From: Candidatus Heimdallarchaeota archaeon
GTDB taxonomy: Archaea; Asgardarchaeota; Heimdallarchaeia; Heimdallarchaeales; Heimdallarchaeaceae
Direction: 5' to 3'
DNA: 64,000 bases
Assembly (NCBI GenBank): GCA_030603365.1
Contig: JAUVXV010000012.1
Location: 1-64,000, forward strand
Both the position numbers and the translations under genes were made by a program. This document shows, piece after piece, positions 2,151 to 44,981 of this stretch; within the stretch, counting starts at the first letter, position 1; each line of letters starts with the position of its first letter. Below the pieces are notes generated by a model. It saw only the letters and a program-made list of their open reading frames with translations. It ran no database searches and was not told the DNA's origin.

Positions 2151-3107
2151 TTATATTTTATACTCTTGAATTTCCTTATAATTACCATCTGGTATCTTGA
2201 AAGTTTGTATAATGAAATCTATCAATTCTTCCTTTGAATTGGATTCTCTTTTCTCAAGATGTTCATATATGATTTCAATCAACCTCTGTGCTTCTATATT
2301 AGAATCATTTGGTTCTGTAATCAGAGAAATTACAATTTCACCTCTTTCTTGAAAAGCAATTTGTCCATAATTCGAGACAACACTAGCAACTCTCTCATCT
2401 CTTAAAGAGTTGTTTTTATCATTTAGTACTTCAGATAACAAATCCAGAACTGAAATAAGATTATTTCTTACATCAGAGAAATCTAAGAACAATTTGATGT
2501 TACCAAAAATGGACGATATAATTAAACCTTTAGGAGATATCGTTTGTCCTACAGTGATTTCTTGCATTTTTCTAGTAAACCATCCCATTGCATTATCAAC
2601 ATTCATTGCTGTTTTAACGCTAATTTCAAAAATCTGAAAACTTATTTTTGGAAAATTACTGAGTTTTTGTAAATCTAGTACTTCAATAATCTCATCAAGC
2701 TCCATAGAAACTAAATCAGCTTTATTTGCGAGGAAAGCTAAAGCAATTCTGCGATCTACCTCTAAGTTATTAATGAGATACCAAAACCATTCTCTACCCT
2801 CTTCAGTTCGTTTTCTATTAGAAGCATCAAAAATAAAGAGAATGCCATAGCTATTAGCGGCATAGTTCAACCAAAATTGTCTTCTTAAGGTTTGATGGCC
2901 CCCCACGTCAAATAACTTTAGGAGACTATCACCAGCTCTATAGGTTTCAAAGTTTACTCCAATTGTTGGTGAAGTGTTATCTACCCATTTACCTGTAGCT
3001 AACCTTAATGCTAAGCATGTTTTACCTGCTTCATCTAATCCTAGTAAAGTAACTGGAATTCCTTTCTTACTGAAACTTAAACTTGTCATTTTCTCAACCT
3101 TTTTCAT
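2151..3107 (-). CDS. Arf-family small GTPase with C-terminal extension, His-type
   Basis: A 318-residue Arf/Ras-type GTPase. The N-terminal about 190 residues carry all G motifs: P-loop GLDEAGKT, switch I Thr in SPTIG, G3 DVGGHQ, G4 NKAD and a G5-like SVKT. The position that is the catalytic Gln in Arf proteins (DVGGQ) is His. The last about 120 residues are an extra alpha/beta domain of the kind (longin or roadblock-like) often attached to Asgard GTPases; that assignment is inferred from strand pattern only. It is the last gene of a three-gene minus operon (GTPase, GAF/PAS-like protein, GTPase). The first ATG (3107) is used; Met7 is an alternative. There is no lipidation motif or membrane segment. 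It presumably acts as a GTP-dependent switch; its partners are unknown. Confidence 0.88.
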   Translation of the reverse strand: MKKVEKMTSLSFSKKGIPVTLLGLDEAGKTCLALRLATGKWVDNTSPTIGVNFETYRAGDSLLKLFDVGGHQTLRRQFWLNYAANSYGILFIFDASNRKRTEEGREWFWYLINNLEVDRRIALAFLANKADLVSMELDEIIEVLDLQKLSNFPKISFQIFEISVKTAMNVDNAMGWFTRKMQEITVGQTISPKGLIISSIFGNIKLFLDFSDVRNNLISVLDLLSEVLNDKNNSLRDERVASVVSNYGQIAFQERGEIVISLITEPNDSNIEAQRLIEIIYEHLEKRESNSKEELIDFIIQTFKIPDGNYKEIQEYKI

Positions 3108-3136
3108 TTTATTATCTTTTTCTATTTCCTTAATCC

Positions 3137-4453
3137 TTAATCGATAAATACGAGGTCTCTAAATTGTGAGAGTTCTTCTCTATTCATTCTATTTGGAAAC
3201 TCAAAATTACTCATCAAATTCTCAAAACTCTTTTCTATTTTCTTATTGGGTAAAAGAAATTCTATCTTTCTGTCGGGTAATATCACAGCAATAAGATAAT
3301 ACTGTCTTCCCTTCATTCGATGATCAAGTGGGATATCATCTTTCCCAAAGAAAGCATAAATGATAGTCCTATAATTTTCAAGTTTTGGTGCGGGAATGGG
3401 ACCAAAAACGCCAACTGGTTGTGAGTTTCCTTGTGCAATACTTGTATAGCACATGGTAGAAAAGTATTCAGAAGCAATGCTAATGCTGCGTAAATCCTCT
3501 CTAATCAATTCTCCTCCAAATGAAGCAAATCGGAAAATAGCTACTCCAATATTGTCTTCATTAGCCATTGATATTCTAAGATTTTTTATTTCTTCCTGTT
3601 GCTTGAGATAGTAACTGGCATCTTCTAAGGTAAGTATGAAGGTTTTTCTATCATCATCAGTTACTTGAGTTATAGCTACATGACATGGAAATTCTATCCC
3701 ATCTTTCCTTCGGATTTGATAGATTAATCCATCCATCACATTCCCTTCAAGTATAATAAATGTGAAATCTGGAAAGATGTTGTTGATAAGTGTTGAAGAT
3801 TCCTGTAATTCCTGTAAACTATATCCAATCATCATTTCAAACATTTGATTAGCAAAAAGAAACACTCCTTTTGAATCAATTGAGGCAATTCCTGAGGCGA
3901 TACTTTGAAGGATCTTTGTTGATTCCTTAGATTCAAGATTCCTCTTCTTTTGATGATTAGCATTCTTCAAACTAATATGGATCACTGGTAGAATTTCTAG
4001 AACTTCATCAATTATTTGTTGCGCATCAAAAGATGCTTGAATAAGAGGAATTTCTATCATGAATTCTAAAGAGCTCCTTAGAACATATGGGCAAAAGATT
4101 GTTGGTATGTTTTTTCTTAATGATATGGACCTTTTTCTTAAAGCAGGCTTAGTAATTGAATAGATTCTAGAAATGAGTTTTTCATCCAAAATAGCAATAG
4201 TTTCAAGTTTTTCAGAATTTCTATTATAAGCAGTTACTCTATCTCCTATTTTATTAGTAAAATAGAAAGAACAATTTTCACAATTGTAAATATCAAGCAA
4301 TAAATTGAATACTTTTTCTACTACATCAGAAATTGATGATACTTCTGCTAAGGTTTGAAAGAAGCTAAAGAATGATCTAGTTTTGTTGTCAGGGCTCTGG
4401 AAGTTTTTTTCCTTGTATTTGGTAATTTGAGCTGAGTTCGTCAAACTTATCAC
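3137..4453 (-). CDS. GAF/PAS sensor-like protein with novel C-terminal domain
   Basis: A 438-residue soluble protein lying between two Arf-like GTPases in one minus operon. Residues about 25-165 look GAF-like (dyad of helices, then CENCSFYF and an IPLI strand). Residues about 180-295 form a PAS domain (GIASIDSKGVFLFANQMFEMMIGYS, ending in an FILTLED strand). The C-terminal about 130 residues contain strands TIIYAFFGKD and YYLIAVILPD followed by a helix. That arrangement could be longin-like and is similar in feel to the tails of the neighbouring GTPases. There is no kinase H-box and no DNA-binding domain. Its position suggests it senses a ligand and acts on the flanking GTPases, perhaps as a regulator or GEF/GAP-like partner; this is inference. 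Confidence 0.75.
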   Translation of the reverse strand: MISLTNSAQITKYKEKNFQSPDNKTRSFFSFFQTLAEVSSISDVVEKVFNLLLDIYNCENCSFYFTNKIGDRVTAYNRNSEKLETIAILDEKLISRIYSITKPALRKRSISLRKNIPTIFCPYVLRSSLEFMIEIPLIQASFDAQQIIDEVLEILPVIHISLKNANHQKKRNLESKESTKILQSIASGIASIDSKGVFLFANQMFEMMIGYSLQELQESSTLINNIFPDFTFIILEGNVMDGLIYQIRRKDGIEFPCHVAITQVTDDDRKTFILTLEDASYYLKQQEEIKNLRISMANEDNIGVAIFRFASFGGELIREDLRSISIASEYFSTMCYTSIAQGNSQPVGVFGPIPAPKLENYRTIIYAFFGKDDIPLDHRMKGRQYYLIAVILPDRKIEFLLPNKKIEKSFENLMSNFEFPNRMNREELSQFRDLVFID

Positions 4454-4474
4454 TCTTTACATTCATATTATGAT

Positions 4475-5374
4475 CTAGAATTCCCACTTAACTGAGTCAA
4501 TTAGATTCTTTATTGTATCCTTATCTATTTTTAATTCTCTCTTCATTCGGGACAGAACTTCGAAAAACAATGTCAATCCAGTTTCTCTAGCTATGCTTTG
4601 TTCATCATCCTGATTAACATATAAGATTGCATAGTAATCCCCCTTCTTAAGCATATGAACCACATAATTGTCAATTTTTATAGATGGTAAGGAGTCAATC
4701 ATTTTCAGAGAGTGAGCTCGGAATACTTGCTTTACTTCTTGAATTTCAGTTTTCTTTTCATTTTCGATGAATATCTCATCAAATATAGGTTCAAGTCTGT
4801 CATCCAAAATCTCAAATGCATATACATTCACTGAAGGTTTAGCTTCCATTCTTCTCCTGATAGATTGAGATAACCATGTCCAACATTCCTTGATATTTTT
4901 TCCAGTTACGCTTGATGTTTCAAAGATTCTAAAACTTTTCAGCGGTGATTCACTGAATTTTGTAAGATCAAGTTCTTCAACTATATCTTCTAGACTGAGT
5001 GAGTCTTCTAGGTCAGATTTATTCGCAAAGAAAGCAAAGTTTGCGTCTTTAGGAATCCATTCTTCTACTTTCCACAACCACTCTTTCACCAGTTTCATTC
5101 TATTCTTATCAGTTCTGTCAAATACAAATATACAGCCTTGGCAAGAAGAAACGAAATTTTCCCAGAAAGTTGACCTGAAGGATTGTTGTCCTCCTAAATC
5201 TACAACATCAAAACGATAATCATTTTCTTTAATAATAGAAAGGTCATATCCAACAGTTGGTTGGAAATCATCTTTGAATTCTCCAGTTTTTAAACGATGA
5301 ATGAAGGTAGTTTTCCCAGCTTTTTCTAATCCAGTGATTGCAATCAATGGATGAATTTTCTTTTTAATACTCAT
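4475..5374 (-). CDS. Arf-family small GTPase with C-terminal extension, Gln-type
   Basis: A 299-residue GTPase, first gene of the minus operon 5374 to 2151. The motifs are P-loop GLEKAGKT, switch I QPTVG, G3 DLGGQQ (the Arf-type Gln is kept), G4 NKSD and G5 TSSVTG. The C-terminal about 115 residues are a separate alpha/beta domain (VYAFEILDD ... YYAILYVNQDD) that may be longin-like. The start is the ATG at 5374. Element B and a possible TATA (CAATATAG) lie just upstream. In gene order it matches the Gln-type GTPase at 17793, each being followed by a His-type partner, so the two operons look related by duplication. Confidence 0.88.
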   Translation of the reverse strand: MSIKKKIHPLIAITGLEKAGKTTFIHRLKTGEFKDDFQPTVGYDLSIIKENDYRFDVVDLGGQQSFRSTFWENFVSSCQGCIFVFDRTDKNRMKLVKEWLWKVEEWIPKDANFAFFANKSDLEDSLSLEDIVEELDLTKFSESPLKSFRIFETSSVTGKNIKECWTWLSQSIRRRMEAKPSVNVYAFEILDDRLEPIFDEIFIENEKKTEIQEVKQVFRAHSLKMIDSLPSIKIDNYVVHMLKKGDYYAILYVNQDDEQSIARETGLTLFFEVLSRMKRELKIDKDTIKNLIDSVKWEF

Positions 5375-5417
5375 ACATATCCCAATTAATTTACCGTAAA
5401 ATACATTAATTCTATAT

Positions 5418-5458
5418 TGAAAGAAAAGTGAAAAAACATGGAAAAATAGGGAAAAGAC
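5418..5458 (-). promoter_or_regulatory. T-rich regulatory element, copy B, in a divergent promoter
   Basis: Read towards the minus operon this is a T-rich run holding TTTTCC, TTTTTCCATG and TTTTTTCAC units about 10 bp apart, ending CTTTCAATATAGAATTA, the last part a likely TATA region for the gene at 5374. The same 162-bp gap also carries the promoter of the plus-strand 12-PAS gene (TTTAAACTTTATCGTTTTATAG around 5512-5532), so the element could serve both. Confidence 0.6.
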
Positions 5459-5551
5459 TTTTTTATCATAAAAACCACTGTTATAGTTAGTGCTTTGTAA
5501 TCACATAAGGGTTTAAACTTTATCGTTTTATAGCTATTGAAGAAGGGGATA

Positions 5552-8500
5552 ATGATGTGCATAGGTGTTATAAGCTCTCAATTACTGCTAGATACAGCAG
5601 ATTTTATTTATGTTGCAATTGATGTTGATCAGAAAGTCACTCTCATTAATAGAAAGGGATGTGAGATTCTTGGTTATTCAGAGGATGAAATTATTGGTAA
5701 GAACTGGTTCGATAATTTTCTTCCTAAAGAAGTTGCTGGGGATTTCAAATCTAATTTTGTTAGACGAATTACTGAAAACAAAGAGACCAAACTAGCTAAG
5801 AGCTATACTCTATTGACAAAAGAAGGAGAGGAGAGATTAATTTCTTGGCACAGCACTTTTTTCAATGATGAAGAGGGAAATTTAGTTGGTGCTTTATGTT
5901 CAGGAGAGGATATCACAGATTATACTAGAACGAAACAGATGCTCGAAGCAAATGAAAGAAAATTTAGCAAATGTTTTAATCATTCTAATGATGGCTATGC
6001 ATTAAGAAAGTTAGATGGAACTATTTTGGACGCAAATCTCAAATTTCTCGAATTATTTGGTTACAAGAAAGATGAAGTGATTTCTAAGAATATTAAAGAA
6101 ATCGAATTACTAGAAGATTCTAAAGAATTAAGTCGATTGATAAAAGAAATTGGTAAAGAAGGATTTCTTCAAGTGGAAACAACAGCAAGGAAAAAGGATG
6201 GAACAACATTCCCCATTGAACTAAACGGAATCACATTTGATTTAGAGGGAGAGAAAGTAGTCTTTAACATCATTCGAGATTTAACAGAAAGTAGGAAGAG
6301 AGAAACTGTTTTAAGGGAAAGTGAAGAGAGATTTCGAGGATTGTTCGAAACTGCTGCAATTGGTATGGCAATAGTAGATCTGGAGGGGAAGCCAGTCGCT
6401 AGTAATGAAGCTTTACAAAAAATGCTAGGATATACAAATGAGGAACTATGTAGTATGACTTTTACTGAGTTTACTCATCCTGACGATGCTACAGTTGATA
6501 TGGATCTTTATATGGAGTTAATTGCAGGTAAAAGGAAGTACTATCAGATAGAGAAAAGATACATTACAAAGAATAAAAAACTCATCTGGGGAAATCTAAC
6601 AGCTACTCTAATTCGAGATGAAAATGGTGAGCCACTTTACGGTATTGGTATGGTAGAAGAAATAACTCAGCTGAAAGAAACTATAATAGCTTTAGCAGAA
6701 AGTGAATCAAAATATAGGACATTACTCGAAAGTCTACCTCAGAAAATTTTCCATAAGGATGCTGATCTGAAATATGTTTCATGCAATGAGAATTTAGCTA
6801 ATGATCTAAATATTAAACCGTCTGAGATAAAGGGAAAAACTGATTTTGATTTCTTTACAAGTGAACTTGCAGAGAAATACAGAGCTGAAGATAAGAGAAT
6901 AATGAAAGAAAGAAAAGTTGAAACAATAGAAGAAAAAACCGTAAAAAATGGAAAGGAATATACAAGTGAAACTACTAAAATTCCATTATATGATGAAAAA
7001 GGAGAAAGTGTAGGAGTCATTGGAATTTATTATGATATTTCAGAAAGGGTAAAAACTGAACGAGAATTACAAGAGAGCGAGGAAAAATATCGCAGTTTTG
7101 TACAGAATTTCCAAGGAATTGCATTCAGGAGAACATTGGATTTCAAACCCATTTTCTTCCATGGAGCTGTAGAAGAAATCACTGGCTACACAGAGGAAGA
7201 GTTTGTATCTACCTCACTTACTTGGGATAAACTCATTCATCCAGAGGATATTGTAAAGATAAAAGAGCTATTAGAGAAATTAAGTAATGTTCCAGATTTA
7301 TTTAATGAAGGAGAATATAGAATTATCCATAAGAATGGAGAGATTAAATGGATTAATGAGATAGTTAGGAATATTTGTGATGAGAAAGGAAAACCAATAT
7401 ATGTACAGGGGTGTATACATGATCATACTGAAAGAAAAGTTATAGAAGAGAAAATTAAGGAAAACGAGGAAAAGTTTCGTACTCTTTTTACTGAAATGAA
7501 GCAAGCTTACTCCTTATATGAAGCTATATATGATAAAAGAGGAGACATTGAAGATGCAATATTAATAGAAGCTAATCCAGAATATGAAAAAATAGTAAAC
7601 AAGAAGAGAGAGGAAATAATTGGTAAGAAAATATCAGAAATCTATCCTAACTTAAAGAAACAAGAGGTTAATCCAATAGCAATACTAGGAAGAACCGCAA
7701 TAACAGGAGAAACTGTAATATCAGAATACTATAACAAAGATGTTGGTAAATGGCTTTTAGCTAAATCTTTTTCTCCAATGAAAGATCATGCTGCAATATT
7801 ATTTGAGGATATCACAGAAAAACGTAAAATGGAGAAAGAATTAGAGAAAGAAAGAAAAGCAACACAACAATATTTAGACATTGTAAATATCATCCTAACT
7901 GTAATCGATGCAAATGAAAATGTCATATTAGTCAACAAAAAAGGATGCGAGCTTTTAGGCTATGAACACGAAGAGATAATTGGGAAAAATTGGTTTGAAA
8001 ATTATCTGCCAAAAAGAGTTCGAGAAGAAACAAAAGAAATTTATCAAGACTTATTAGCTGGTAAACTAACCCACTCTGAGTCCCATGAGAACCTCATTCT
8101 CACTAAAGATGGTGAAGAGAGACTAATAGCATGGGATAATACCTATATTAGGGATGAGGAAGGAACAATTGTTAGTACTTTAAGTTCTGGAAGAGACATA
8201 ACTGAGATGAATAAAGCTCAAAAAGAACTTAAAGAAAACGAAGAAAAATTCAGAAGTATCTTCAACCATTCTAATGACGGATATATTTTAAGATCAGTTG
8301 AAGGTGTAGTTTTAGAAGCAAATCCTAGATTTCTTGAGATATTTGGGTACGAATCTACTGAAGTCATTTCTACTAATATAAGGTTAATCAACACATATGA
8401 AACTGAGGAAGATCATATAAGTAGAAAGCAAGAAATCGATGAGAAAGGGTATGCTCAGTTTGAAACTTTTGCTACCAGAAAAGACGGTTCTATTTTCCCA

Positions 8501-10780
8501 ATGGAAGTAAATGCAATTAAATTATTGCTTAGTAATGAGGAAGTGGTCTTTGTAATTGTTAGAGACATTACTGAAAGGAAAAAAGCAGAAACAAAGATCA
8601 AATCTTCAGAAGCATTATACAAAGCACTTTTTGACAATACAGGAACTGCGATGATGCTAGCAGAAGAAGACTTTACCATAACACTAGTCAATGAACTATT
8701 TTTGGAAAAGTCAGGTTTATCACAAGAAGAATTGTTAGGGAAAAAGTGGACAGATTTTATTCAAAAAGCAGAAAAAGAAAATATAATTAAAGCTATTAAA
8801 AGGATGGTTACAGATTTTATCCCACCAATAATTTTTGAAACCTCGGAATTTTGGATACTTGGAGAAAATAAGACTTTACTGGTATCTATAGGCATTAATC
8901 CTGAAACGAGACAACACATAGCTTCGCTTATTGATATAACTGAAAAGAAGAAACTTGAAAAAGAACTCTCTACAAGTGAAGAAAAATATAGAGAGCTATT
9001 CAACAATGTTCCTATTGCTCTGAGTCAAACCAAACCTAGCGGTGAGATAGTAGAATGCAACTCTGCTTTCATCAATATTTTTGGATACAAAAATGCTGAA
9101 GAACTAAAAAAGGTCAATGTAGAGGAATTATACTTTGATCGAAGTGAACGAAAAGCAGTTCTAGCTGCAAAAGATAAAGCAGGATACTCTGAGTTTTTAC
9201 TTCAAAAGATGAAAAAGAAGGATGAAACCCCTATATGGGTGGAAATGAACTCAAAAATATCCTACGACGACAACCAAAATGTTTCACATTATGATACATA
9301 CTTGAAAGATGTAACAGATAAAAAAGAGATAGAAGAGAGGTTGAAGCAAAGCGAAGAAAAATTCAGAAGCATTTTCAACCATTCAGTTGACGGATATATG
9401 CTCCGTGATGAATATGGAATAATTCTGGAACATAACCCAATGTTACTGGAAATTTTTGGTTATGATGAAGAAGATCTAGATGGTATGGATATTACAAAAT
9501 TCGAAATGAAAGAAAATACTGAAGATTTTATGAAAATAAGAGATATGCTTGCTTCAAAAGGTCATGCTTTTCTTGAAACAAGATTCATGAAAAAGGATAA
9601 GACATGGATTTCAACAGCAGTTTCAGCAATTAAGTTTGATCTAGCTGGAAGGGATGTCGTCTTCTCAATATTAAGAGATATTTCAAAACGGAAAGAAACA
9701 GAAGAATTGTTGAAAACAAGCGAAGAAAGACTCAGAACTTTGTTTGAAAACATCCCCATTGCGATTTCAATAAATTCCTCAGAAGGTGAAAAAATAGATA
9801 TTAATCCGGCTTATTGTAAGACTTTTGGATATGCTAATAAAGAAGAATGCTTATCAAAACCTTCAACTGAGCGCTGGTTTAATCCCCGAGATCGTGAAAG
9901 GCTTTATGATTCATTACGCCAGAGGAATTTTGTTAATAATTTTGAAGCAAAACGTTTCAAAAATGATGGAAGTGAATTTTGGGGGTCAGTCTCAGCTGTA
10001 GCACATTTAGATGCTAAAGGAGAAAAAGTATATTTTATGTCAATAAGAGACATCACTACAGAAAAACAAAGAGAGGAAGATCTGAAAAAACAAACCTTGA
10101 GATATTATTTGAAAGAATCGCAATTATATCTATCTGAAGAAGAGCGACCATATATCTCAAAAGAAGCCTTTATTGATTTATTGAAAGTAGGGTATAATGG
10201 TTTAGTTCTTTCAAGATTACCTGAAACTGAATGGAAGAAAGATACAAAATATGAATTCGATTTCTTAAGATTAGCTGAAAAAGGGCATTTGAAAACTATC
10301 TCTTCCGATCTAAGCAAGATAGAACAACTTATAGAAGAACTACCCAACAAACATGTAATTGTTATTGATAGACTAGATTATCTCATTTCTAAGAATGGGT
10401 TTGAAACCACTCTGTTCTTTATCTTCAGATTAATGGACATTGCCTACCTTTCTAATCACATAATTATTGTATCACTTGATCCTGCAACTCTAAATGAAAA
10501 AGAAAGGAAATCAATGAGAAAGGAGATGCGAATAATTGAATCCGTAGCTGAAGCTTCATTACCTGAAGAACTAATCGAAATTCTGGATTTTGTTCATAGG
10601 AGGAACAATGCTGGATACAAACCTTCCTATACAGATATTGTTGAAACTTTCAAAATAAGTAGACCTACTGCAAGGAAACGAATAAAGGATTTAATTAACG
10701 ATGAGTTCATATTTGAATTAACAAAAGGAAGAAGCAAAGTTCTAGGAATAACAACAAAAGGAAAAGCTATTTTTGATTAA
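5552..10780 (+). CDS. Giant multi-PAS sensor with DUF835 and winged-helix output
   Basis: About 1,742 residues and no membrane segment. Twelve consecutive PAS domains of about 115-125 residues each run from about residue 10 to 1510, most ending in the D-I-T-E-R/K linker. They are followed by a DUF835-like domain (about 1525-1665) and a C-terminal winged helix (about 1675-1742; SYTDIVETFKISRPTARKRI is the helix-turn-helix). DUF835 with PAS domains is known from archaea. There is no histidine-kinase core, so it looks like a one-component cytosolic sensor that may bind DNA directly. PAS1-PAS2 closely resemble PAS7-PAS8, indicating duplication of a block. A TTG at 5537 extends the frame by five codons, but the ATG at 5552 is preferred because AGAAGGGGA precedes it and the TATA-like TTTTATAG ends at 5532. 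It is transcribed divergently from the GTPase operon. Confidence 0.88.
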   Translation: MMCIGVISSQLLLDTADFIYVAIDVDQKVTLINRKGCEILGYSEDEIIGKNWFDNFLPKEVAGDFKSNFVRRITENKETKLAKSYTLLTKEGEERLISWHSTFFNDEEGNLVGALCSGEDITDYTRTKQMLEANERKFSKCFNHSNDGYALRKLDGTILDANLKFLELFGYKKDEVISKNIKEIELLEDSKELSRLIKEIGKEGFLQVETTARKKDGTTFPIELNGITFDLEGEKVVFNIIRDLTESRKRETVLRESEERFRGLFETAAIGMAIVDLEGKPVASNEALQKMLGYTNEELCSMTFTEFTHPDDATVDMDLYMELIAGKRKYYQIEKRYITKNKKLIWGNLTATLIRDENGEPLYGIGMVEEITQLKETIIALAESESKYRTLLESLPQKIFHKDADLKYVSCNENLANDLNIKPSEIKGKTDFDFFTSELAEKYRAEDKRIMKERKVETIEEKTVKNGKEYTSETTKIPLYDEKGESVGVIGIYYDISERVKTERELQESEEKYRSFVQNFQGIAFRRTLDFKPIFFHGAVEEITGYTEEEFVSTSLTWDKLIHPEDIVKIKELLEKLSNVPDLFNEGEYRIIHKNGEIKWINEIVRNICDEKGKPIYVQGCIHDHTERKVIEEKIKENEEKFRTLFTEMKQAYSLYEAIYDKRGDIEDAILIEANPEYEKIVNKKREEIIGKKISEIYPNLKKQEVNPIAILGRTAITGETVISEYYNKDVGKWLLAKSFSPMKDHAAILFEDITEKRKMEKELEKERKATQQYLDIVNIILTVIDANENVILVNKKGCELLGYEHEEIIGKNWFENYLPKRVREETKEIYQDLLAGKLTHSESHENLILTKDGEERLIAWDNTYIRDEEGTIVSTLSSGRDITEMNKAQKELKENEEKFRSIFNHSNDGYILRSVEGVVLEANPRFLEIFGYESTEVISTNIRLINTYETEEDHISRKQEIDEKGYAQFETFATRKDGSIFPMEVNAIKLLLSNEEVVFVIVRDITERKKAETKIKSSEALYKALFDNTGTAMMLAEEDFTITLVNELFLEKSGLSQEELLGKKWTDFIQKAEKENIIKAIKRMVTDFIPPIIFETSEFWILGENKTLLVSIGINPETRQHIASLIDITEKKKLEKELSTSEEKYRELFNNVPIALSQTKPSGEIVECNSAFINIFGYKNAEELKKVNVEELYFDRSERKAVLAAKDKAGYSEFLLQKMKKKDETPIWVEMNSKISYDDNQNVSHYDTYLKDVTDKKEIEERLKQSEEKFRSIFNHSVDGYMLRDEYGIILEHNPMLLEIFGYDEEDLDGMDITKFEMKENTEDFMKIRDMLASKGHAFLETRFMKKDKTWISTAVSAIKFDLAGRDVVFSILRDISKRKETEELLKTSEERLRTLFENIPIAISINSSEGEKIDINPAYCKTFGYANKEECLSKPSTERWFNPRDRERLYDSLRQRNFVNNFEAKRFKNDGSEFWGSVSAVAHLDAKGEKVYFMSIRDITTEKQREEDLKKQTLRYYLKESQLYLSEEERPYISKEAFIDLLKVGYNGLVLSRLPETEWKKDTKYEFDFLRLAEKGHLKTISSDLSKIEQLIEELPNKHVIVIDRLDYLISKNGFETTLFFIFRLMDIAYLSNHIIIVSLDPATLNEKERKSMRKEMRIIESVAEASLPEELIEILDFVHRRNNAGYKPSYTDIVETFKISRPTARKRIKDLINDEFIFELTKGRSKVLGITTKGKAIFD

Positions 10781-10782
10781 CT

Positions 10783-10822
10783 TCTTTTCCCTATTTTTCC
10801 ACATTTTATCATTTATATTTCT
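10783..10822 (+). promoter_or_regulatory. T-rich regulatory element, copy C
   Basis: Begins three bases after the stop of the 12-PAS gene and reads TCTTTTCCCTATTTTTCCAC, the most diverged copy (about 33 of 41 positions match copy B by eye). It lies 85 bp upstream of the hybrid histidine kinase gene and in the same orientation to it; TATA-like AATTCAGTTATAAAG follows. Confidence 0.55.
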
Positions 10823-10907
10823 AAATTCAGTTATAAAGATAAGGGGTTGGTAAACTAAAACGAATATCTGATAAGATTAAAATCACTTTCAAAGGATTGG
10901 GATCAAA

Positions 10908-13900
10908 TTGCCTACTAAAACAGAAAATAAGAATGAAACTGAGACGAGTTCCAATGTATTATCCGATTTTTATGGAAGGTTTGATGACTTAGGAGAAGAC
11001 CTTATGAAACTATCTTCTCAAGAGCATATTTGTACTATTTATCGAAAAGATGAAGACAAGATAGATTCTATTATGGAATTCCTTAAAACAGGCATAGTAA
11101 AAAACGAGAGAAGTGTAATTATAGTTGACAAAAAATCAAAAGAAGATATTCTAAAAAAGATGAAGTCTATAGAAGATATTAAGAATCTTCTCAATACTTC
11201 AGCTATAGTGTTCGTAGGTTCAGAAGATATTTATGGTAACAAATCTGATTTTAATCTAGCTAGAACCATTGAATCAATTGAACCTTATTTGGAAGTTCCA
11301 CAAGAAGACAACTTCAATGGTTTAAGGATAATTGTTGAAATTTTACCTCTTAAAAACAAAGACACAACTGTGAATATGAGTTTGGAATTTCATTCAAGTA
11401 TCGACAAACTCATTTCAAACAGAAATATTAATTTTTTCTGTTTATACAACGAATATAGATTCGAATCCAAAACGTTATTAGATGTTATTTTCTCGCACTC
11501 TAAGTTAATTTTTAATGGTTTTTTATGTGAAAATTCTTTTTCAATGGATCCTCAGCAGCTTCAATTAAAACTAGAAGATAGGTTAGATGACGCACTCTAC
11601 AAAAAAACTGTCTATGAGATTGTTCAAGGTGAGGTAACTAAACAAAAGAGAGTAAAAACAGATTATTACTTTCAAAAAGAAACTCTCAAAGGCATTAATG
11701 ATTCTGTCTTTATTTTAGATTTTGAAGGCAATATACTTGAAGTAAACGAAGCTGCATACACAACAAGAGGATATACAGAAGAAGAGATACTAAGTCTGAA
11801 TATTTTAGACATAATGAGCTCAGAAAACAAAGACTTATTTGATTCGAGGATCGAAGAACTAAAGGAAAAGAGGGAGATAACATTTGAAACTACTCATTAT
11901 TGTAAAAATGGAACAATATTAGATGTGGAGTTTAAAACTAAAATAATCAGTTATGATGATCAACAGTATATTTTAAGTGCTGGAAGAGATATAACAGAAA
12001 GAAAAATAGTTGAAAAAGAAGCAAAAACTAGCGAAGAAAAATACAGAAGTATCTTCAACAATGCCAATGATGCCATTTTTTTATTAGAAGAATGTGAGGA
12101 TGGTAGATTTAACAAAATCGTTGAAGCAAACAAACAAGCTGTAAAAATGTATGGCTATTCAAAAGAAGAATTATTTAAAATGAGCCCCAATGATTTTAAT
12201 GCTACTGGGTATGTTGAAACTGAAGAAACCTTAAATGAATTCTTAAAAGAAAGAAGAATAAGATTTGAAAGAACACACAAAACAAAAAATGGTAAAATAA
12301 TTAATGTTGAAATTAGTTCTCAGTTGTTTGAATTAGATGGAGAAACAGTTAGTCATGCAATGGTACAAGATATTACAGATAGAAAGAAGGCTCAAAGAGA
12401 ACTTAAAGACAGCGAAGAAAAATTCAGGATGATTTTTAATAGTGTTAATGATGCAGTGTATCTTTTTAGTATTGAAGGGAATCTGTTGCCATCCAATTTT
12501 ATTGAAATCAATGATGTTGCTTGCAAGATGCTAGGTCACACTAAAGATGAATTTAGAAAGATGTCTCCAATCGATTTAGCATCAAAGGGAAATAAACAAA
12601 GAATTTCAGAGGTTTTGAGTAAACTTACAAAGGCAGGAAACATTACTTTTGAAAGTACTCATATTACAAAAGAAGGAAAACATATCCCAGTAGAAATCAG
12701 TTCTCATACCTTCCAATATCATAACAATCAAATGGTGCTTTCAATCGTTAGAGATATTACCGAAAGGAAAAAGAGTGAAGAAAAATTAAGAAGGTTGAAC
12801 GAAGAACTAGAAGAAAAAGTTGTTCAGAGAACTTACCAAATGGAGACATTGTACAATATTATTAAGGAAATATCTGAAACCTTCGATTTAAATGAAGCAA
12901 TGAGAATTATCACAAAATATATTTCAAAATTGGTTGATTATGACATTATTTTTCAGCTGATTACCCAAGAGGAGTTAAATCACATTCATATAGAAGCGCC
13001 CAAAGGGGATAAGGGAGTAATTGATGATTTTATAAAAAACGTCAAAGAAGAATTTGCAGAACTAAATCCTGATGCTTTGAATAATCGCGATGCAACAACT
13101 ATTATAACTTCAGATAAAAAGACAATTCAAAACATATTGTCACACATATCCATACCGCTTATTGCTGAGGATAAAGTAGTTGGATATGTTGTAATAGGCT
13201 CAGAACAAAAGGATGCTTATATTGAAGAAGAGATCTGGTTCTTGTATAAAATCGCAGACAACATTTCTCATACTCTTCAAAGATTAAAAGTAATTCTAAC
13301 TGCAAAGGATGAATTAGAAACAGTTCTTAATCATACATCCGATAGCGTCATACTCATTAATAATAATGATTCGGTAGTGATGACCAACAAAGCTGGAGGT
13401 AGATTTTTAGAGTTGATTAATTGTTCAGAGACGGATGGTATAGATAATGAAATATTAAACCTTGAAGAGCTTAAAGGGATTGACAAAAAAGAATTATCTC
13501 TGTATGGTAGAACCTACTATGTTTCCATGAATCCAATTAAGACTGATTTTGTTCATGGTTGGCTTCTAATTATTCATGACATAACTGAAGAAAGAGAGCT
13601 GCAGAAGAAGATACTGCATCAAGAGAGATTAGCTACATTAGGAAAGATAACTGGTGGTATCGCTCATGATTTTAACAATATTCTTGCCACTATTATCGGT
13701 GCAGCTGATTTCTCTTTGATGAATGCTGATAATATTGAATCGAAAGAGTTTCTGAATTTAATAATCAGACAAAGCGAGAAGGGAGCATCATTGATAAGAC
13801 AGATGTTAGATTTTACTAGACAGGCAGTGATAAGACCAAAACCTATTTCTTTACTTAATTTTATAACAGAATTTTCTAGGGTAATTAGATCTTCCTTACC

Positions 13901-14753
13901 AGAAAATATCTCTCTCTCGGTTAACACTAAAGATTGGACAGTTTTCATGGACCAGGTACAATTGCAGCAAGTTTTTTTGAATCTTATATTCAATTCAAGA
14001 GATGCCATCAGTAAAGAAGGAAACATCAAAATCTTTATCGAAGAAATTGAGCATTCAAACATCATAGATTTCGAAGGAATGGAAATTGATAAAAGTCAGG
14101 ATTACATTCATTTCATGGTTGAAGACAATGGGGAAGGAATGAATAAACAAACAAAAAAGATGATCTTTGAACCCTTTTTCACAACAAAAGATCCAGGAAA
14201 AGGAAGTGGGTTAGGATTAGCACAGGTTTATGGTATTGTAAGGCAGTCAAATGGATATATCGATGTAGAAAGTGAAATGAAGTTAGGAACAAAAGTCCAT
14301 TTTTATATTCCAAAGTATGAGGGTTTAGTAGAAGAAGAGATTGTAGAAACAGCAAGATCAGGAGAAGGAAGAATTTTACTAGTTGAAGACGATGAAGACG
14401 TAAGAGAGATTACCAAAATAATGTTAGAGAACTACGGATATATAGTAGTTACTGCAGAAAACGGGAAAATAGCTCTAGATTTATATAACGATTCTTTTGA
14501 TGTAGTCTTAACAGACATTATTATGCCTGTTATGGGAGGAGAAAAACTGATTGAGAAGTTGTTAGAAATAGATCCACAAATAAAATGCTTAGCTATGACA
14601 GGATATTCAGATACGAATGTTCCAAAAGGTGTCAAAGTTCTAAATAAACCAATAACAAGTTCAAAACTAGTCAACTACATTCAAAACGAGCTTGTACAAG
14701 AAAATAGTCAAGAAAAGATAGTTCAGTATAAGAAAAGAGAGGATGGTGGTTAA
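10908..14753 (+). CDS. Hybrid histidine kinase: MEDS-PAS3-GAF-PAS-HisKA-HATPase-REC
   Basis: A 1,281-residue cytosolic hybrid kinase. Residues about 36-212 match the MEDS sensory domain (EHICTIYRKDED near the start, FLCENSF near the end). PAS domains follow at about 261-370, 376-495 and 504-620, a GAF domain at about 645-795, and a shorter PAS at about 805-900. The HisKA H-box GGIAHDFNN puts the phospho-His near residue 920. The HATPase has its N-box (NLIFNSRDAI) and G-boxes (DNGEGM, GSGLGLAQV). A receiver fills about 1155-1270, with LVEDDED and phospho-Asp in VLTDIIMP near 1202. The start is a TTG; no earlier in-frame ATG exists, and the next Met lies inside the MEDS region. It begins a four-gene unit (kinase, two receivers, kinase) and overlaps the next gene by 11 bp. 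The input signal is unknown. Confidence 0.9.
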   Translation: MPTKTENKNETETSSNVLSDFYGRFDDLGEDLMKLSSQEHICTIYRKDEDKIDSIMEFLKTGIVKNERSVIIVDKKSKEDILKKMKSIEDIKNLLNTSAIVFVGSEDIYGNKSDFNLARTIESIEPYLEVPQEDNFNGLRIIVEILPLKNKDTTVNMSLEFHSSIDKLISNRNINFFCLYNEYRFESKTLLDVIFSHSKLIFNGFLCENSFSMDPQQLQLKLEDRLDDALYKKTVYEIVQGEVTKQKRVKTDYYFQKETLKGINDSVFILDFEGNILEVNEAAYTTRGYTEEEILSLNILDIMSSENKDLFDSRIEELKEKREITFETTHYCKNGTILDVEFKTKIISYDDQQYILSAGRDITERKIVEKEAKTSEEKYRSIFNNANDAIFLLEECEDGRFNKIVEANKQAVKMYGYSKEELFKMSPNDFNATGYVETEETLNEFLKERRIRFERTHKTKNGKIINVEISSQLFELDGETVSHAMVQDITDRKKAQRELKDSEEKFRMIFNSVNDAVYLFSIEGNLLPSNFIEINDVACKMLGHTKDEFRKMSPIDLASKGNKQRISEVLSKLTKAGNITFESTHITKEGKHIPVEISSHTFQYHNNQMVLSIVRDITERKKSEEKLRRLNEELEEKVVQRTYQMETLYNIIKEISETFDLNEAMRIITKYISKLVDYDIIFQLITQEELNHIHIEAPKGDKGVIDDFIKNVKEEFAELNPDALNNRDATTIITSDKKTIQNILSHISIPLIAEDKVVGYVVIGSEQKDAYIEEEIWFLYKIADNISHTLQRLKVILTAKDELETVLNHTSDSVILINNNDSVVMTNKAGGRFLELINCSETDGIDNEILNLEELKGIDKKELSLYGRTYYVSMNPIKTDFVHGWLLIIHDITEERELQKKILHQERLATLGKITGGIAHDFNNILATIIGAADFSLMNADNIESKEFLNLIIRQSEKGASLIRQMLDFTRQAVIRPKPISLLNFITEFSRVIRSSLPENISLSVNTKDWTVFMDQVQLQQVFLNLIFNSRDAISKEGNIKIFIEEIEHSNIIDFEGMEIDKSQDYIHFMVEDNGEGMNKQTKKMIFEPFFTTKDPGKGSGLGLAQVYGIVRQSNGYIDVESEMKLGTKVHFYIPKYEGLVEEEIVETARSGEGRILLVEDDEDVREITKIMLENYGYIVVTAENGKIALDLYNDSFDVVLTDIIMPVMGGEKLIEKLLEIDPQIKCLAMTGYSDTNVPKGVKVLNKPITSSKLVNYIQNELVQENSQEKIVQYKKREDGG

Positions 14754-15144
14754 AATCTGTTTTTGCAGAAAGAGTGAAAATCTTATTGTTAAATATAAAG
14801 AAAAGAAAAGAATTCTACTAGTAGAGGATGATGATATGTTACGTGAGATAACTGCATTAATTCTTAGAAAATTCCAATTTGACGTTCTTGAAGCTGTTAA
14901 TGGTTTCGATGCATTGCAATTGTTTGATGAGACTATTGATCTGGTCTTAACAGATATTGTCATGCCGAAAATGGATGGTATTGAACTAATTCTAGAGTTG
15001 CAAAAAAAGGATCCAGATCTGAAATGTATTGCGATAACAGGTTTTTCCAATGTAAATGTTCCAGAAGATATTGAGGTTCTTCAGAAACCAGTAGGGGGCA
15101 AAAAGCTTGCTACAATCTTAAATGAAAGACTAGCAGCAGCATAA
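14743..15144 (+). CDS. Stand-alone response regulator receiver
   Basis: A 133-residue single REC domain with no output domain. The acidic pocket is LVEDDD, the phospho-Asp lies in LVLTDIVMP, the conserved Thr in AITGF, and the Lys in LQKPV. The preceding kinase gene overlaps it by 11 bp, indicating coupled translation. The first about 20 residues (cysteine-containing) precede the domain and may be untranslated if a later start is used. It closely resembles both the kinase's own receiver and the next gene, so the three look like tandem duplicates. It probably carries phosphate between the hybrid kinase and another partner. Confidence 0.88.
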   Translation: MVVKICFCRKSENLIVKYKEKKRILLVEDDDMLREITALILRKFQFDVLEAVNGFDALQLFDETIDLVLTDIVMPKMDGIELILELQKKDPDLKCIAITGFSNVNVPEDIEVLQKPVGGKKLATILNERLAAA

Positions 15145-15175
15145 GAAATATCAATATAACAATGAGGTAGAAGAA

Positions 15176-15595
15176 ATGGTAGCCAAAGTATCACTAGATG
15201 ATTATGATTTCAAAAAACATAAACATAATGATAAAATAGCTCGAATCCTTCTAGTTGAAGATGATATAGAATTAAATTTAATTATTAAAATAATACTAGG
15301 AAGATTAGGATTTGAAGTCATATCTACTTCAGATGGTAGAACTGCACTGAATTTATATAATAAATCATATGATCTAGTCATTACAGACATTGTGATGCCT
15401 GAAATGGGAGGAGTAGAACTAATCCAAAGGTTAAGGGATCAAAATCCAGAATTAAGATGTATAGCAATTACTGGATACACAAATCAAGCAGTTCCTGAAG
15501 AAATACCTGTTTTGAATAAACCATTTTCAACCACATTACTATTACAATACATAAATGAAGTCTTGAATATTCAAACGACTATAGAAACTCAATAA
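15176..15595 (+). CDS. Stand-alone response regulator receiver
   Basis: A 139-residue single REC domain: acidic LVEDDIE, phospho-Asp in LVITDIVMP, Thr in AITGYT, Lys in LNKPF, and no output domain. The ATG at 15176 is preceded by GAGGTAGAAGA, a reasonable ribosome site. It shares with its two neighbours the unusual segment V-P-x-x-x-x-VL-x-KP before beta-5/alpha-5. Two free receivers between two kinases suggest a branched phosphorelay. Confidence 0.88.
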   Translation: MVAKVSLDDYDFKKHKHNDKIARILLVEDDIELNLIIKIILGRLGFEVISTSDGRTALNLYNKSYDLVITDIVMPEMGGVELIQRLRDQNPELRCIAITGYTNQAVPEEIPVLNKPFSTTLLLQYINEVLNIQTTIETQ

Positions 15596-15675
15596 ATGGA
15601 AATTATTGCATAATAGGTTGTCTTAATTTACTAGGTAGAGAAGATAAAAAATCTAATTGAAAATGGGGTTGAAGT

Positions 15676-17199
15676 ATGGTAAACCAAAAGAAAATAGATT
15701 ATGGAAATCAATTGTTTTCTATAAGTGAAGATATTTTCAACGAGATTAGTAAAAATATTCAAGTTGGTATTTCAATTGTAGATCATGGACATTATATCTT
15801 TATGAATAAAAAATTCAAAGAAATTTTCAGTATTACTGTTAAAGAAGAAAACAGGTCTTTCTCCATATTAGACTACATTGCACCTGAAGATGCTAACAGA
15901 ATTTACAAAATTATTGATTCATCACTTAAAACAAACCAAATGCCTACAGAACTTCAATTTTGGATTATTAGGGGAGATGGAGAAAGAAGATTCATAAACA
16001 ATAAATATACAGTCTTTAAGGGGGGAGAAAAAACTAATACTCACTTAATATTAACAATAGATTGCACTAAGCTAAAATTAACATATGATGCGTTAAGTAC
16101 GAGTGAAAAGAAACTTAGGGAATTGTTCAATAATGCGAATGATGCGATTTTCTTTTCAAGAATAAGAGGAGACGAATTTCTAAGTAATTTCATAGAAGTG
16201 AATGATTTCGCTTGTAATTTGCTAGAGTATACAAAAGAGGAATTACTTGAATTGAGTTCACTAGATATATCAGCTCCAGAAATGAAAGAAGCTAATAAAG
16301 AGATCATTCAACAAATTATAAGAGAAGAGCAAGGAACTTTTGAAACAATACTAATAAGCAAAACAGGGAAAGAAGTACCCGTTGAAATCAGGTCTAACTT
16401 TTTCAATCTAGAAGGGGAAGGAGTCATTTTTACAGTTGCTAGAGATTTAACTGAGCGAAGAAAAGCTGAAAATGAAATCAGGAATCTTAATGAATCATTG
16501 AAGATAATAAATAGCATTTTACGTCATGATTTAAACAATAACCTTTCCGTTATTAAAGGAGCAATTTCCGCTTATAATGATGTTAAAGAACATTCATTTC
16601 TGGAGATGACACTGAAAGCAACTCACAAAAGTTCTGAACTTATACAGAAGATGGGAGAATTAGAGGACGCGCTTATACAAAAGGAAAATCTAACAATACT
16701 AGATTCTGAAGATTTTCTTAATAGAATTATTTCAAGCTATTCACTCTTTAAAGTCACTTTTGAGATAGAAGGTAACGGTAGTTTTTATGTTGATGCAGCT
16801 TTTACCTCAGTAATCGATAATATAATCAATAATGCTATAAAACATGGTCAAGCTGATAAAATTAAAATTTCGATCAAATCTAGTAATGGATTTTGTACGA
16901 TTCAGATAGCTGATAATGGTTCTGGAATATTAGATGAACATAAGAATCATGTATTTGAGCGTAGTTTTAAATATGGTAAAACCGCTGGAACTGGTCTTGG
17001 GTTATATATTGTTAAGAAAAACTTGGAGCGGTATGGGGGCGAGATTACAGTCAAGGATAATTTTCCTAAGGGTACAATTTTTGAGATTAAATTGAAGAAT
17101 AGAGAAGAAAAAGGATTTAAATATAAGTATTTTCCATGTTTTTCCATGTTTTTTCACATCACTTTCAATATAGTATTATTATTTTATAGGGCATTATAA
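15676..17199 (+). CDS. PAS-PAS sensor histidine kinase
   Basis: A 507-residue cytosolic kinase. PAS domains lie at about 15-130 and 145-265. The H-box is ILRHDLNNNLSVIKG (His near 283), the archaeal/haloarchaeal-type sequence. The HATPase runs from about 370 to 475, with N-box IINNAIKHG, G1 DNGSG and G2 GTGLGLYIV. The final about 30 residues after EIKLKN are read through the T-rich element D and encode an odd hydrophobic tail (FSMFFHITFNIVLLFY); the family normally ends at the HATPase, so the tail may be an accident of a lost stop codon. It ends the kinase-receiver-receiver-kinase unit. Confidence 0.88.
   Translation: MVNQKKIDYGNQLFSISEDIFNEISKNIQVGISIVDHGHYIFMNKKFKEIFSITVKEENRSFSILDYIAPEDANRIYKIIDSSLKTNQMPTELQFWIIRGDGERRFINNKYTVFKGGEKTNTHLILTIDCTKLKLTYDALSTSEKKLRELFNNANDAIFFSRIRGDEFLSNFIEVNDFACNLLEYTKEELLELSSLDISAPEMKEANKEIIQQIIREEQGTFETILISKTGKEVPVEIRSNFFNLEGEGVIFTVARDLTERRKAENEIRNLNESLKIINSILRHDLNNNLSVIKGAISAYNDVKEHSFLEMTLKATHKSSELIQKMGELEDALIQKENLTILDSEDFLNRIISSYSLFKVTFEIEGNGSFYVDAAFTSVIDNIINNAIKHGQADKIKISIKSSNGFCTIQIADNGSGILDEHKNHVFERSFKYGKTAGTGLGLYIVKKNLERYGGEITVKDNFPKGTIFEIKLKNREEKGFKYKYFPCFSMFFHITFNIVLLFYRAL
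17130..17167 (+). promoter_or_regulatory. T-rich regulatory element, copy D, inside the kinase 3' end
   Basis: TTTTCCATGT occurs twice in direct tandem, then TTTTTTCACAT and CACTTTCA, giving a clear 10-bp period. It continues into CAATATAGTATTA, nearly the same TATA region as copy B (CAATATAGAATTA). It lies 71 bp upstream of the degenerate-receiver gene at 17239 and overlaps the coding frame of the preceding kinase. Confidence 0.6.
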
Positions 17200-17238
17200 A
17201 TTGAGAAAAATAATTATAGAAAGAGATGTGAAGTTAAA

Positions 17239-17760
17239 TTGAAATCGAAAATCAAAGATACCAAAAAAGAAAGAGCAACTTCGAATAATAGCATAAAAAG
17301 TTATTTGGACCTAAATTCAGAAAAATCTAACTATAAAATAATAAAGCAATTAAATGAGTTTATAAAATCTGAACTTAAGTCATTAAGATTTCGAAACAGA
17401 AAAATAATCAGAAGTGTTCTAGTTGTTGCTGGAAAATTACAAACAAGATTTCTTTGCGATTTGATTATTAAACAATATGGTTTCTCAGTCTCCACTATTT
17501 CTAATGTAGATGAACTCTTAGATATAATTGCTAGCAATTACGTAGCAATTCTTTTTGATGAAACAGACTACAATTCGAGAGATTTGAAAATTATTGAAAT
17601 AATAAAAGTGACCAGTCCAGGAGTAAAACTATTGTCATTTTCAGCAAATCCAAAATTCAATCGTCAACAAAATATTTTTCCTTCTCATAAAATAGCTTCA
17701 AAAAATAGAGTAGTAAAAGGGAGAAGTGAATTGTTATCTGAGGTATCAACTACGTTATAG
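17239..17760 (+). CDS. Degenerate receiver-like protein
   Basis: A 173-residue protein starting at a TTG (AAGAGATGTGAAG lies upstream). Residues about 1-55 are charged and helical. From about residue 58 the sequence follows the receiver fold: VLVVAG, a helix, YGFSVSTI, VDELLDII, AILFDET, and VKLLSFSAN. The acidic pair of the pocket is replaced by Ala-Gly, the Lys motif is not clear, and only an Asp in LFDET remains at the phospho-acceptor position. It is the first gene before two GTPases under element D. It may be a pseudo-receiver adaptor linking phosphorelay and GTPases; this is inferred from position. Confidence 0.65.
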   Translation: MKSKIKDTKKERATSNNSIKSYLDLNSEKSNYKIIKQLNEFIKSELKSLRFRNRKIIRSVLVVAGKLQTRFLCDLIIKQYGFSVSTISNVDELLDIIASNYVAILFDETDYNSRDLKIIEIIKVTSPGVKLLSFSANPKFNRQQNIFPSHKIASKNRVVKGRSELLSEVSTTL

Positions 17761-17792
17761 AAAAGGAAAATACTATTAATGAGAGTGCAAAG

Positions 17793-18695
17793 ATGGGAAC
17801 TAGAAAACAACCAGTTAATTTTGTGATACTAGGTTTAGAGAATGCAGGAAAAACCACTCTATTAAGAAATATCTCAGGCAAAGAATTTGCTGAGACTTTC
17901 ACCACCATTGGTATGAATATCGAGCAGTTAAGACACAAAGGACTGAATTTTCAAGCAATTGATATCGGAGGACAACTTCATTTTCGTGAAACACTGTGGC
18001 AATATTACACGACTTTAGCAAAAGGTGTTATTTTTGTATTTGATATTTTTGACAGGAAAAAATTCTTCGAAGCAAAACAATGGTTTGAATACATATCAGA
18101 AAGACTCGCCAAAAAAGCAGTTCTAATGTTTCTAGCTAACAAAGTAGATCTGAAAGATGAAGATGACACATATCTAACAACTGAAGAAATAATAACTATG
18201 TTTAAACTTGATAATGTCTCCAAATATCCTGAAAGATCCTTTAGAATATGGGAAACATCAGCTAAAACTGGTGAAAATGTAAATGATGCAATTTCATGGA
18301 TGTTCAATAAACTAGTGGAGTTTGTCAAAGAGGAGTCAAGAATCTCTTTTGTATTGATTTTAGATCAAAATAATAAAACCGTTTATAAGACATCTATTGC
18401 TGAAAAAACCGATGAATTTGAGAGAGTCATTAACAAAATCATCATTCAGATGAAAGTTCTTGGTGCAAATGAAAACATGATCTCAATACAAGATTATATC
18501 GCAAGTGTTAGAACAGAAAAAAATTACAGTGTAGTTGTTGGGGCTGAAAATGGAGTGTCCAAAGATGACCTTTCAACTGCAGCTCTATCTATAACTCAGC
18601 TAATAAAAAATAACTTTTATCCCCCTGAACAATTCAAAGAACAATTAGAAGAAGTTGTGAATATCGCTCTTCTTCAACAATTAAACAAGAAATAA
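17793..18695 (+). CDS. Arf-family small GTPase with C-terminal extension, Gln-type
   Basis: A 300-residue GTPase: P-loop GLENAGKT, switch I FTTIGMN, G3 DIGGQL with the Arf-type Gln, G4 NKVD, and G5 TSAKTG. The C-terminal about 115 residues begin with strands FVLILDQNNKTVYKT and end in helices, compatible with a longin or roadblock-like domain. The ATG at 17793 is used. Thirteen bases separate it from the next GTPase gene, so the pair is co-transcribed. It is the counterpart of the Gln-type GTPase at 4475. Confidence 0.88.
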   Translation: MGTRKQPVNFVILGLENAGKTTLLRNISGKEFAETFTTIGMNIEQLRHKGLNFQAIDIGGQLHFRETLWQYYTTLAKGVIFVFDIFDRKKFFEAKQWFEYISERLAKKAVLMFLANKVDLKDEDDTYLTTEEIITMFKLDNVSKYPERSFRIWETSAKTGENVNDAISWMFNKLVEFVKEESRISFVLILDQNNKTVYKTSIAEKTDEFERVINKIIIQMKVLGANENMISIQDYIASVRTEKNYSVVVGAENGVSKDDLSTAALSITQLIKNNFYPPEQFKEQLEEVVNIALLQQLNKK

Positions 18696-18708
18696 AGGTA
18701 TAGTTAAA

Positions 18709-19650
18709 ATGGAAAGAACAACTATAGCAATTACCGGGTTGCCGGGAGCAGGAAAAACATGTTTCACACAGAGACTTCTAACAGGAAATCACATTACATC
18801 CCAACCTACTTTTGGAGTGGATGTAGAATTTGCTTCTTATAAAGGTCTTCCTTTACAAATCTGGGATATGGGTGGACATTTGGCATTTAGAACACATATT
18901 TGGGAAAATTATATCAAAATGTCCTCTGGATTAATATATATTTTTGATGCTTCAGATTTATCCCAAATAGAAGAAAGTGCTGAATGGTTCTGGAAATGTT
19001 TCTCTTGGATAGAAGATAAGAAAGCCCCCATTTTGTTTTTAGCCAATAAATGGGATTTAGTTGAAGATGAAGAGAGAGTCATGAGTTCTATTGTTGAAGG
19101 ATTTAGATTAAATGAAATTGCGCTCAAATCACTTGATTCCCCTTTCAGATTTTTCTTTATATCAGTCAAAACAGGAGCATACTTCTCAGATGCTCTAAAT
19201 TGGTTAATTGTAAAACAATTTATCGAAAAACGAATAACCCATAACAAAATAATCTCATTGGATATTTTCGTAAAAATTGGAGACAGTTTAGCACATATTC
19301 ACGATAATTCTCAAGAAAGAAATGAAGTCCTGAATACTATTGACATATACAAAAAGAAATTTGAACAATCTGAAAGTGAGAAATTAAATCTACTGGAGGA
19401 GATTAGTTATGAAGGTTATAAAGTGCTTCATATATCTCATTCCTTTATGTCTCTTCTTGTAATATCCAAAGAGGATTTTATAGATAGAGCAGGATTTACA
19501 AACATTTTGGAAAAAATAGAAACAGAAAAATCATTTGAGGACATAAATGGGTTCTATACCCTATACGAAAGCGTAAAGAAATTAATCTCAAAGAATTTTC
19601 ACACAAAAATTTCATCCACACTCAGTTGTGACTTGTTAATTACTAATTAA
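18709..19650 (+). CDS. Arf-family small GTPase with C-terminal extension, His-type
   Basis: A 313-residue GTPase: P-loop GLPGAGKT, switch I SQPTFGVD, G3 DMGGHL (His in place of Gln), G4 NKWD, and G5-like SVKTG. The C-terminal about 120 residues are a diverged alpha/beta tail. AAAGGTATAG precedes the ATG. It is last in the element-D unit and is the partner of the Gln-type GTPase 13 bp upstream, paralleling the 4475/2151 pair. Confidence 0.88.
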   Translation: MERTTIAITGLPGAGKTCFTQRLLTGNHITSQPTFGVDVEFASYKGLPLQIWDMGGHLAFRTHIWENYIKMSSGLIYIFDASDLSQIEESAEWFWKCFSWIEDKKAPILFLANKWDLVEDEERVMSSIVEGFRLNEIALKSLDSPFRFFFISVKTGAYFSDALNWLIVKQFIEKRITHNKIISLDIFVKIGDSLAHIHDNSQERNEVLNTIDIYKKKFEQSESEKLNLLEEISYEGYKVLHISHSFMSLLVISKEDFIDRAGFTNILEKIETEKSFEDINGFYTLYESVKKLISKNFHTKISSTLSCDLLITN

Positions 19651-40770: not shown

Positions 40771-40851
40771 CATCATAGAAATAAAGATATTTTGGGAACA
40801 CTTTTAGTTCTTGAACACTATAGTATATTGTATTCACAAAGGTGACTAGTG

Positions 40852-42816: not shown

Positions 42817-42903
42817 CATTAATACTATAATCAGGTAATTTTTAGGGGAAGAGTTTTATTTATTTGAAGAGTTAACGTTTATGTTTCATAAAGGGGAAAA
42901 ACA

Positions 42904-44907: not shown

Positions 44908-44981
44908 AGAAATTTTAATTAAATACCACTAATACAGAAAAGAGTTTTATTCTAGTTTCACCTATAATATATATTCCATAG

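Follow-up and report, generated by a model that had tools for sequence, protein, structure and literature searches.

In eukaryotes, longin-domain proteins set the nucleotide state or the partners of Rag and Arf GTPases. Heimdallarchaeota are often placed near eukaryotes, and to our knowledge little has been established about what acts upstream of the small GTPases of Asgard archaea. The Asgard strain MK-D1 encodes GTPase-longin and GTPase-roadblock fusions that are structurally Rag-like, and one Rag-like pair in an operon was modelled as a Gtr1/Gtr2-like heterodimer. The GTPase genes of this strain generally lie outside roadblock/longin operons, and PAS domains are not mentioned in that study (PMC10933270). 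In Myxococcus, the MglA-MglB-RomR/RomX module places a small GTPase under a roadblock-class platform and a receiver-domain protein (PMC9481161, PMC6785124). Some archaeal response regulators join a receiver (REC) to a lineage-restricted output domain (PMC5847659).

Here we consider a window of 64,000 nucleotides, the start of contig C4 in a host genome of 3.65 Mb on 17 contigs. With a probability of about one half, we suspect that its first part is a sensing-to-GTPase cassette of Heimdallarchaeota in which sensor output passes through a longin-like domain, here called X. As in Rag/Gtr and the Asgard Rag-like fusions (PMC10933270), its GTPases have an Arf/Rag-like core with an extra C-terminal domain and are encoded in tandem, suggesting heterodimers; what sets the cassette apart from the MK-D1 fusions is that genes for a PAS-longin sensor and a phosphorelay are set among its GTPase pairs. 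X resembles the longin regulators (GATOR1, FLCN-FNIP, Lst4 and C9orf72-SMCR8) in that its fold matches their PDB complexes, but no similarity to them was detected at the sequence level, and it differs from them in consisting of one small domain and in its fusions to receivers and PAS/GAF sensors. Compared with the MglA module, the cassette GTPases are Arf/Rag-like with extra domains, and in the fusion REC-X the receiver is joined to a longin-like domain. The likeness to the MglA module and to eukaryotic Rag/longin systems would be one of logic only; the parts differ, and we do not claim membership in either. REC-X also follows the plan of archaeal response regulators, but its X has a candidate target, and neither REC-X nor a longin-like output appears in the output-domain table of the archaeal census (PMC5847659). 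A literature search, with subscription papers mostly outside its scope, returned no paper joining these elements for Asgard archaea.

The window opens on the minus strand with the C-terminal part of a TPR-containing protein of ~910 aa (1-1997; weak TPR_12 match), truncated by the contig end and 91% identical to its relative in genome G020. It adjoins the first GTPase gene in relatives wherever that position is readable, and belongs to the cassette. GTPase G1 follows (2151-3107, minus), with an Arf/Rag-like core at residues 7-180 (PF00025, 4e-31) and a C-terminal domain of ~125 aa. The middle protein (3137-4453, minus) has a GAF-like domain (residues 41-136), a coil, a PAS domain (188-278) and the longin-like X (303-434), an unnamed domain of ~140 aa encoded at 3149-3574 on the same strand (alignment A1). 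GTPase G2 (4475-5374, minus; PF00025, 1e-32) has the same Arf/Rag-like core and C-terminal domain plan as G1.

All further cassette genes are on the plus strand, at spacings of -11 to 127 bp, and those from 5537 to 19650 probably form a single transcription unit. The first encodes a giant protein (5537-10780) with about a dozen PAS domains, DUF835 (PF05763, 2e-18) and a C-terminal winged helix. It is followed by a hybrid kinase (10908-14753; MEDS-PAS-PAS-PAS-GAF-HisKA-HATPase-REC, H-box GGIAHDFNN), the free receivers REC1 (14743-15144; PF00072, 9e-19) and REC2 (15176-15595; PF00072, 7e-18), both with intact phospho-acceptor residues, and a PAS-PAS-HATPase kinase (15676-17199; H-box LRHDLNN). 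A degenerate receiver, or pseudo-receiver (17239-17760), then precedes GTPases G3 (17793-18695) and G4 (18709-19650), each with an Arf/Rag-like core and a C-terminal domain. All genes listed in the initial annotation of this DNA were found where it had placed them, and its two kinases, two free receivers, giant PAS protein and GTPases gave domain matches. Absent from its listing were the extra C-terminal domain of the GTPases, the X of the middle protein and the TPR protein.

The X domain came to light in a BLAST search within the host genome, where residues 300-393 of the middle protein match a response regulator encoded on contig C15, in its output half. A profile of X made from related sequences, with distant members down to 1e-11, confirms that X is common to the middle protein and to this REC-X protein, and finds X in 39 of 148 genomes sampled from the Asgard phylum. 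REC-X fusions occur in the host (L008) and at L130, L131, L132, L137 and L138, including more distant genera; the fusion is present at every genus-member REC-X locus retrieved, and L064, L066 and L068 have a REC-linker-X form. Other architectures include PAS-X, X-PAS, PAS-X-GAF-GAF and TPR-X. X also forms the C-terminus of NosD-like beta-helix proteins (L059, L060, L061 and L085); these are probably receptors in the membrane whose X output lies in the cytosol. That GAF, PAS, REC and membrane-type sensor domains have X as a common output is directly supported by these fusions. A stand-alone X, a protein of 256 aa, lies right after a second tandem Rag-like pair in the host, G003, G002 and G015, 4-13 bp behind it in these four genomes of three genera.

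X has no family match in Pfam or NCBIfam, no sequence match in the PDB, and no sequence-level similarity to known longins or to a longin profile. When the full-length middle protein (AlphaFold2, mean pLDDT 88) was compared with PDB folds, only sensor proteins, mostly PAS, came out on top; this search was set aside, and X was therefore folded alone. The resulting model (mean pLDDT 90) is a confident beta-beta-alpha-beta-beta-beta-alpha-alpha fold, with strands at 10-16 and 21-27, a helix at 35-47, strands at 55-61, 68-78 and 90-100, and then helices, which fits the longin pattern bb-a-bbb-a(a). The first Foldseek match is a Lokiarchaeota longin domain (probability 0.99; the top longin matches are at 0.99 and 0.98), and the best 20 include the GATOR1-KICSTOR, C9orf72-SMCR8-ARF1, Lst4 and FLCN-FNIP2-Rag complexes; the E-values are modest, at 3e-3, and some PAS/LOV domains have nearly as good scores. 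A longin-like fold is thus predicted for X, well supported but not proven. The practical outcome of the analysis is a new domain family.

In all four GTPases, the P-loop GxxxxGKT, DxGG and NKxD motifs are intact (alignment A3), and a clear Arf-family core is followed by ~120-130 C-terminal residues. Pfam searches with the C-terminal domains gave no family, only noise (one Longin match, E 0.06), and the best PDB profile match, to AP-4 sigma, is weak (E 0.25). By analogy with the published Asgard examples, and with this weak match, the C-terminal domain may be longin-like. The Gtr1_RagA profile scored 20.4 bits on G1, under its cut-off of 22, while the Arf profile scored 108 bits. Given that the MK-D1 fusions are structurally Rag-like (PMC10933270), we call G1-G4 Rag-like, a name given on architecture alone. 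A comparison of X with the GTPase C-terminal domain (hhalign) found no similarity, and the two would be different families, even if both are longin-like. The second Rag-like pair of the host genome (L001, 8445-11233), the one followed by a free X, has a degenerate DxGG motif (EADE) in its second member, a possible pseudo-GTPase partner.

Among the 80 X genes examined, a GTPase gene lies no more than 3 kb away in 17, and for each of these the nearest such gene is on the strand of the X gene; the sample was partly chosen via X and the cassette, and is not unbiased. These neighbourhoods span several architectures, namely PAS-X flanked by G1 and G2, a free X following a pair, and REC-X. In G003, a member of another, related genus, a G4 orthologue (51%, 7e-96) lies 299 bp upstream of REC-X, and in G001 REC-X is 88 bp from a small GTPase; weaker cases are ~2 kb apart. 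Of the six X genes in the host genome, two are next to long GTPases (P ~0.0006-0.0025 under a simple model). The recurrence of X genes in operons with Rag-like GTPases is directly supported. For the remaining 63 of the 80, no GTPase lies within this distance, and X may thus also act with other partners. The best-supported GTPase partner in the cassette is the middle protein, not the degenerate receiver.

The named close relatives of the cassette locus are Heimdallarchaeota MAGs, and the gene neighbourhood, whose conservation the initial annotation had proposed to check, keeps its order in several species. GTPase-PAS-X-GTPase is found in the host, G020, G010, G023, G011 and G015, and is partly visible in G017 and G002. 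The G2-G3 interval is complete in the host, G010 and G023, where it holds the giant PAS protein, the hybrid kinase, REC1, REC2, the second kinase and the degenerate receiver; in G022 the contig starts inside the hybrid kinase. G020 has lost kinases and receivers and kept the GTPases; what is left of its interval is the degenerate receiver, the giant PAS protein and fragments with MEDS and PAS. In G011 and G015, only ~275 bp separate the divergent genes G2 and G3, with no gene in between, and G016 has G3-G4 without a receiver. These three genomes rule out that the four GTPases and the phosphorelay form one inseparable unit. At least five genomes (G011, G015, G016, G002 and G003) have orthologous GTPases but lack the phosphorelay beside them, and the GTPase-PAS-X-GTPase triplet predates the phosphorelay and is more widespread.

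This distribution is also what would be expected if the phosphorelay had been inserted beside a cluster of GTPase genes that moves as one, position being common and the pathway not. Such linkage gains some weight from chance: the host genome has nine REC matches (three in the cassette), nine HATPase_c matches (two in the cassette) and 43 Arf-family genes, of which about nine are of the long ~300-330-aa type and four of these are in the cassette. Simple arithmetic (~10 two-component loci, 6 long-GTPase loci, 3.65 Mb) then gives ~0.3 expected coincidences within 10 kb. Co-location alone is not beyond chance, and the argument is carried by conservation and domain sharing. Relocation fits passive linkage too, in that the cassette has moved as a block between two chromosomal sites: it lies beside hydrogenase genes in the host and G020, and between nadC-like and peptidase genes in G010 and G023, with parts of that site in G022 and G015, whereas on host contig C15 the nadC-like and peptidase genes are direct neighbours (L008, 3228-5156). 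G010 (L050, ~11040 onward) and G023 (L052) are 94% identical from the middle of the giant PAS gene through G4 and beyond and 80% identical before it, which reflects recombination between species or a chimaeric contig. Either is compatible with passive linkage; as evidence for horizontal transfer of the phosphorelay with G3 and G4 the split was dropped, a chimaera being possible with a G010 contig coverage of 1.4. Mere linkage nevertheless accounts poorly for the tight co-directional spacing, with the pseudo-receiver immediately ahead of G3 in each of five genomes. The G3 genes beside the phosphorelay or its remnant also cluster together in the tree (support 71-81; G016 not included), and other genomes again have receivers next to these GTPases (L130, L187). 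We consider passive linkage distinctly unlikely, and favour the sensing-to-GTPase cassette.

The receivers themselves are of two kinds. REC1, REC2 and the receiver of the host REC-X have the acidic pair, the phospho-acceptor Asp, Thr/Ser and Lys. The pseudo-receiver gave no Pfam match; it retains Asp, Ser and Lys, and its Mg-binding acidic pair is replaced by AGK, AGN or ARN in all five relatives. A search against a single distant receiver gave no match, and family profiles were needed. These align the pseudo-receiver family with the cassette's own receivers, the closest to it, at a probability of 93 and an E-value of 3e-7 over 101 columns (hhalign; control profile 0.2). Given this closeness and a common short region before the conserved Lys, the pseudo-receiver is probably a local duplicate minus the Mg-binding pair. 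It lies 1-32 bp upstream of G3 in four genomes and 77 bp upstream in G020, and is present only in the five genomes having the phosphorelay or its remnant. A second association of a receiver with these genes comes from G015 (L187, 1-4795): 35 bp downstream of a TPR protein of the cassette type there is a canonical free receiver, and a G4 homologue is close by.

These observations bear on the proposal of the initial annotation that the kinases gate the GTPases through the degenerate receiver or the GAF/PAS protein. The gene order kept across several species, the place of the pseudo-receiver directly ahead of G3 and its restriction to loci with the phosphorelay or its remnant speak for it, as does REC-X, which has the output domain of the middle protein and adjoins a G4 orthologue in another genus; the GTPase orthologues lacking a phosphorelay, and the loss of kinases and receivers in G020, speak against it. 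Sensor or receiver control of the GTPases is strengthened, but through domain X, and the gating of these GTPases by this phosphorelay is plausible and unproven. A further point against the GTPases as the phosphorelay's output is the DNA-binding output conserved in the same operon: the giant protein ends in DUF835 and a winged helix (wHTH) in all four genomes with a readable end (the host, G020, G010 and G023), also after the loss of kinases and receivers. The kinases and receivers could then modulate this DNA-binding protein, which would regulate cassette promoters, and the GTPases would be regulated genes or co-transcribed passengers, not direct phospho-targets. The giant protein gene is divergent from G2 (5374/5537), and the commonest archaeal pattern is free receivers and REC-PAS proteins (PMC5847659). 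However, this account leaves unexplained the degenerate receiver abutting G3, the REC-X gene beside a G4 orthologue and the PAS-X gene between GTPase genes, and we judge it rather unlikely. Transcriptional output and GTPase control may coexist.

In the sensing-to-GTPase reading, the core would be G1, the GAF-PAS-X protein and G2, plus G3 and G4, with the Rag-like GTPases encoded in pairs. The middle protein would be a soluble sensor with its C-terminal X as output; signal binding at GAF/PAS may alter the docking of X on the GTPase pair, which could in turn change the nucleotide state or the partners of the pair, possibly in a GEF or GAP role. X would be a general output module, driven elsewhere in the host genome by the phosphorylatable receiver of REC-X. 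The phosphorelay would have joined the cassette in one clade, its kinases phosphorylating REC1, REC2 and perhaps the REC-X encoded elsewhere. It would most likely bias G3 and G4 via the pseudo-receiver co-encoded with G3, with the pseudo-receiver or REC-X relaying the state, while transcriptional output by the DUF835-wHTH protein would run alongside. The domain content, the fusions, the conserved order and the REC-X gene beside G4 in another genus are read from sequence, and the fold of X is predicted.

The shared X suggests a route from bacterial-type signalling to eukaryote-like GTPases. Its PAS-X, REC-X and free forms beside GTPase pairs are concrete candidates for signal inputs, and with them Heimdallarchaeota may possess a pre-eukaryotic version of nutrient signalling under longin control. 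Only tentatively do we extend this to a direct wiring of Asgard His-Asp phosphorelays to Rag-like GTPases, in which the switchable GTPase regulator would be a phosphorylated receiver, either in fusion with a longin-type domain (REC-X) or encoded together with one. If such direct wiring is true, bacterial-type sensing would drive a eukaryote-type GTPase switch.

A few other features of the window were recorded. The kinase at 15676-17199 has a ~28-aa tail past the stop of its G010 relative, with loss of the ancestral stop as the probable origin. Two overlapping ORFs of 338 and 314 aa at 38835-40770 resemble a single copy, broken by a frameshift, of the ~655-aa TPR paralogues (40849-46955 and 49671-51644), and a protein of 214 aa at 62012-62656 looks gelsolin-like by eye.
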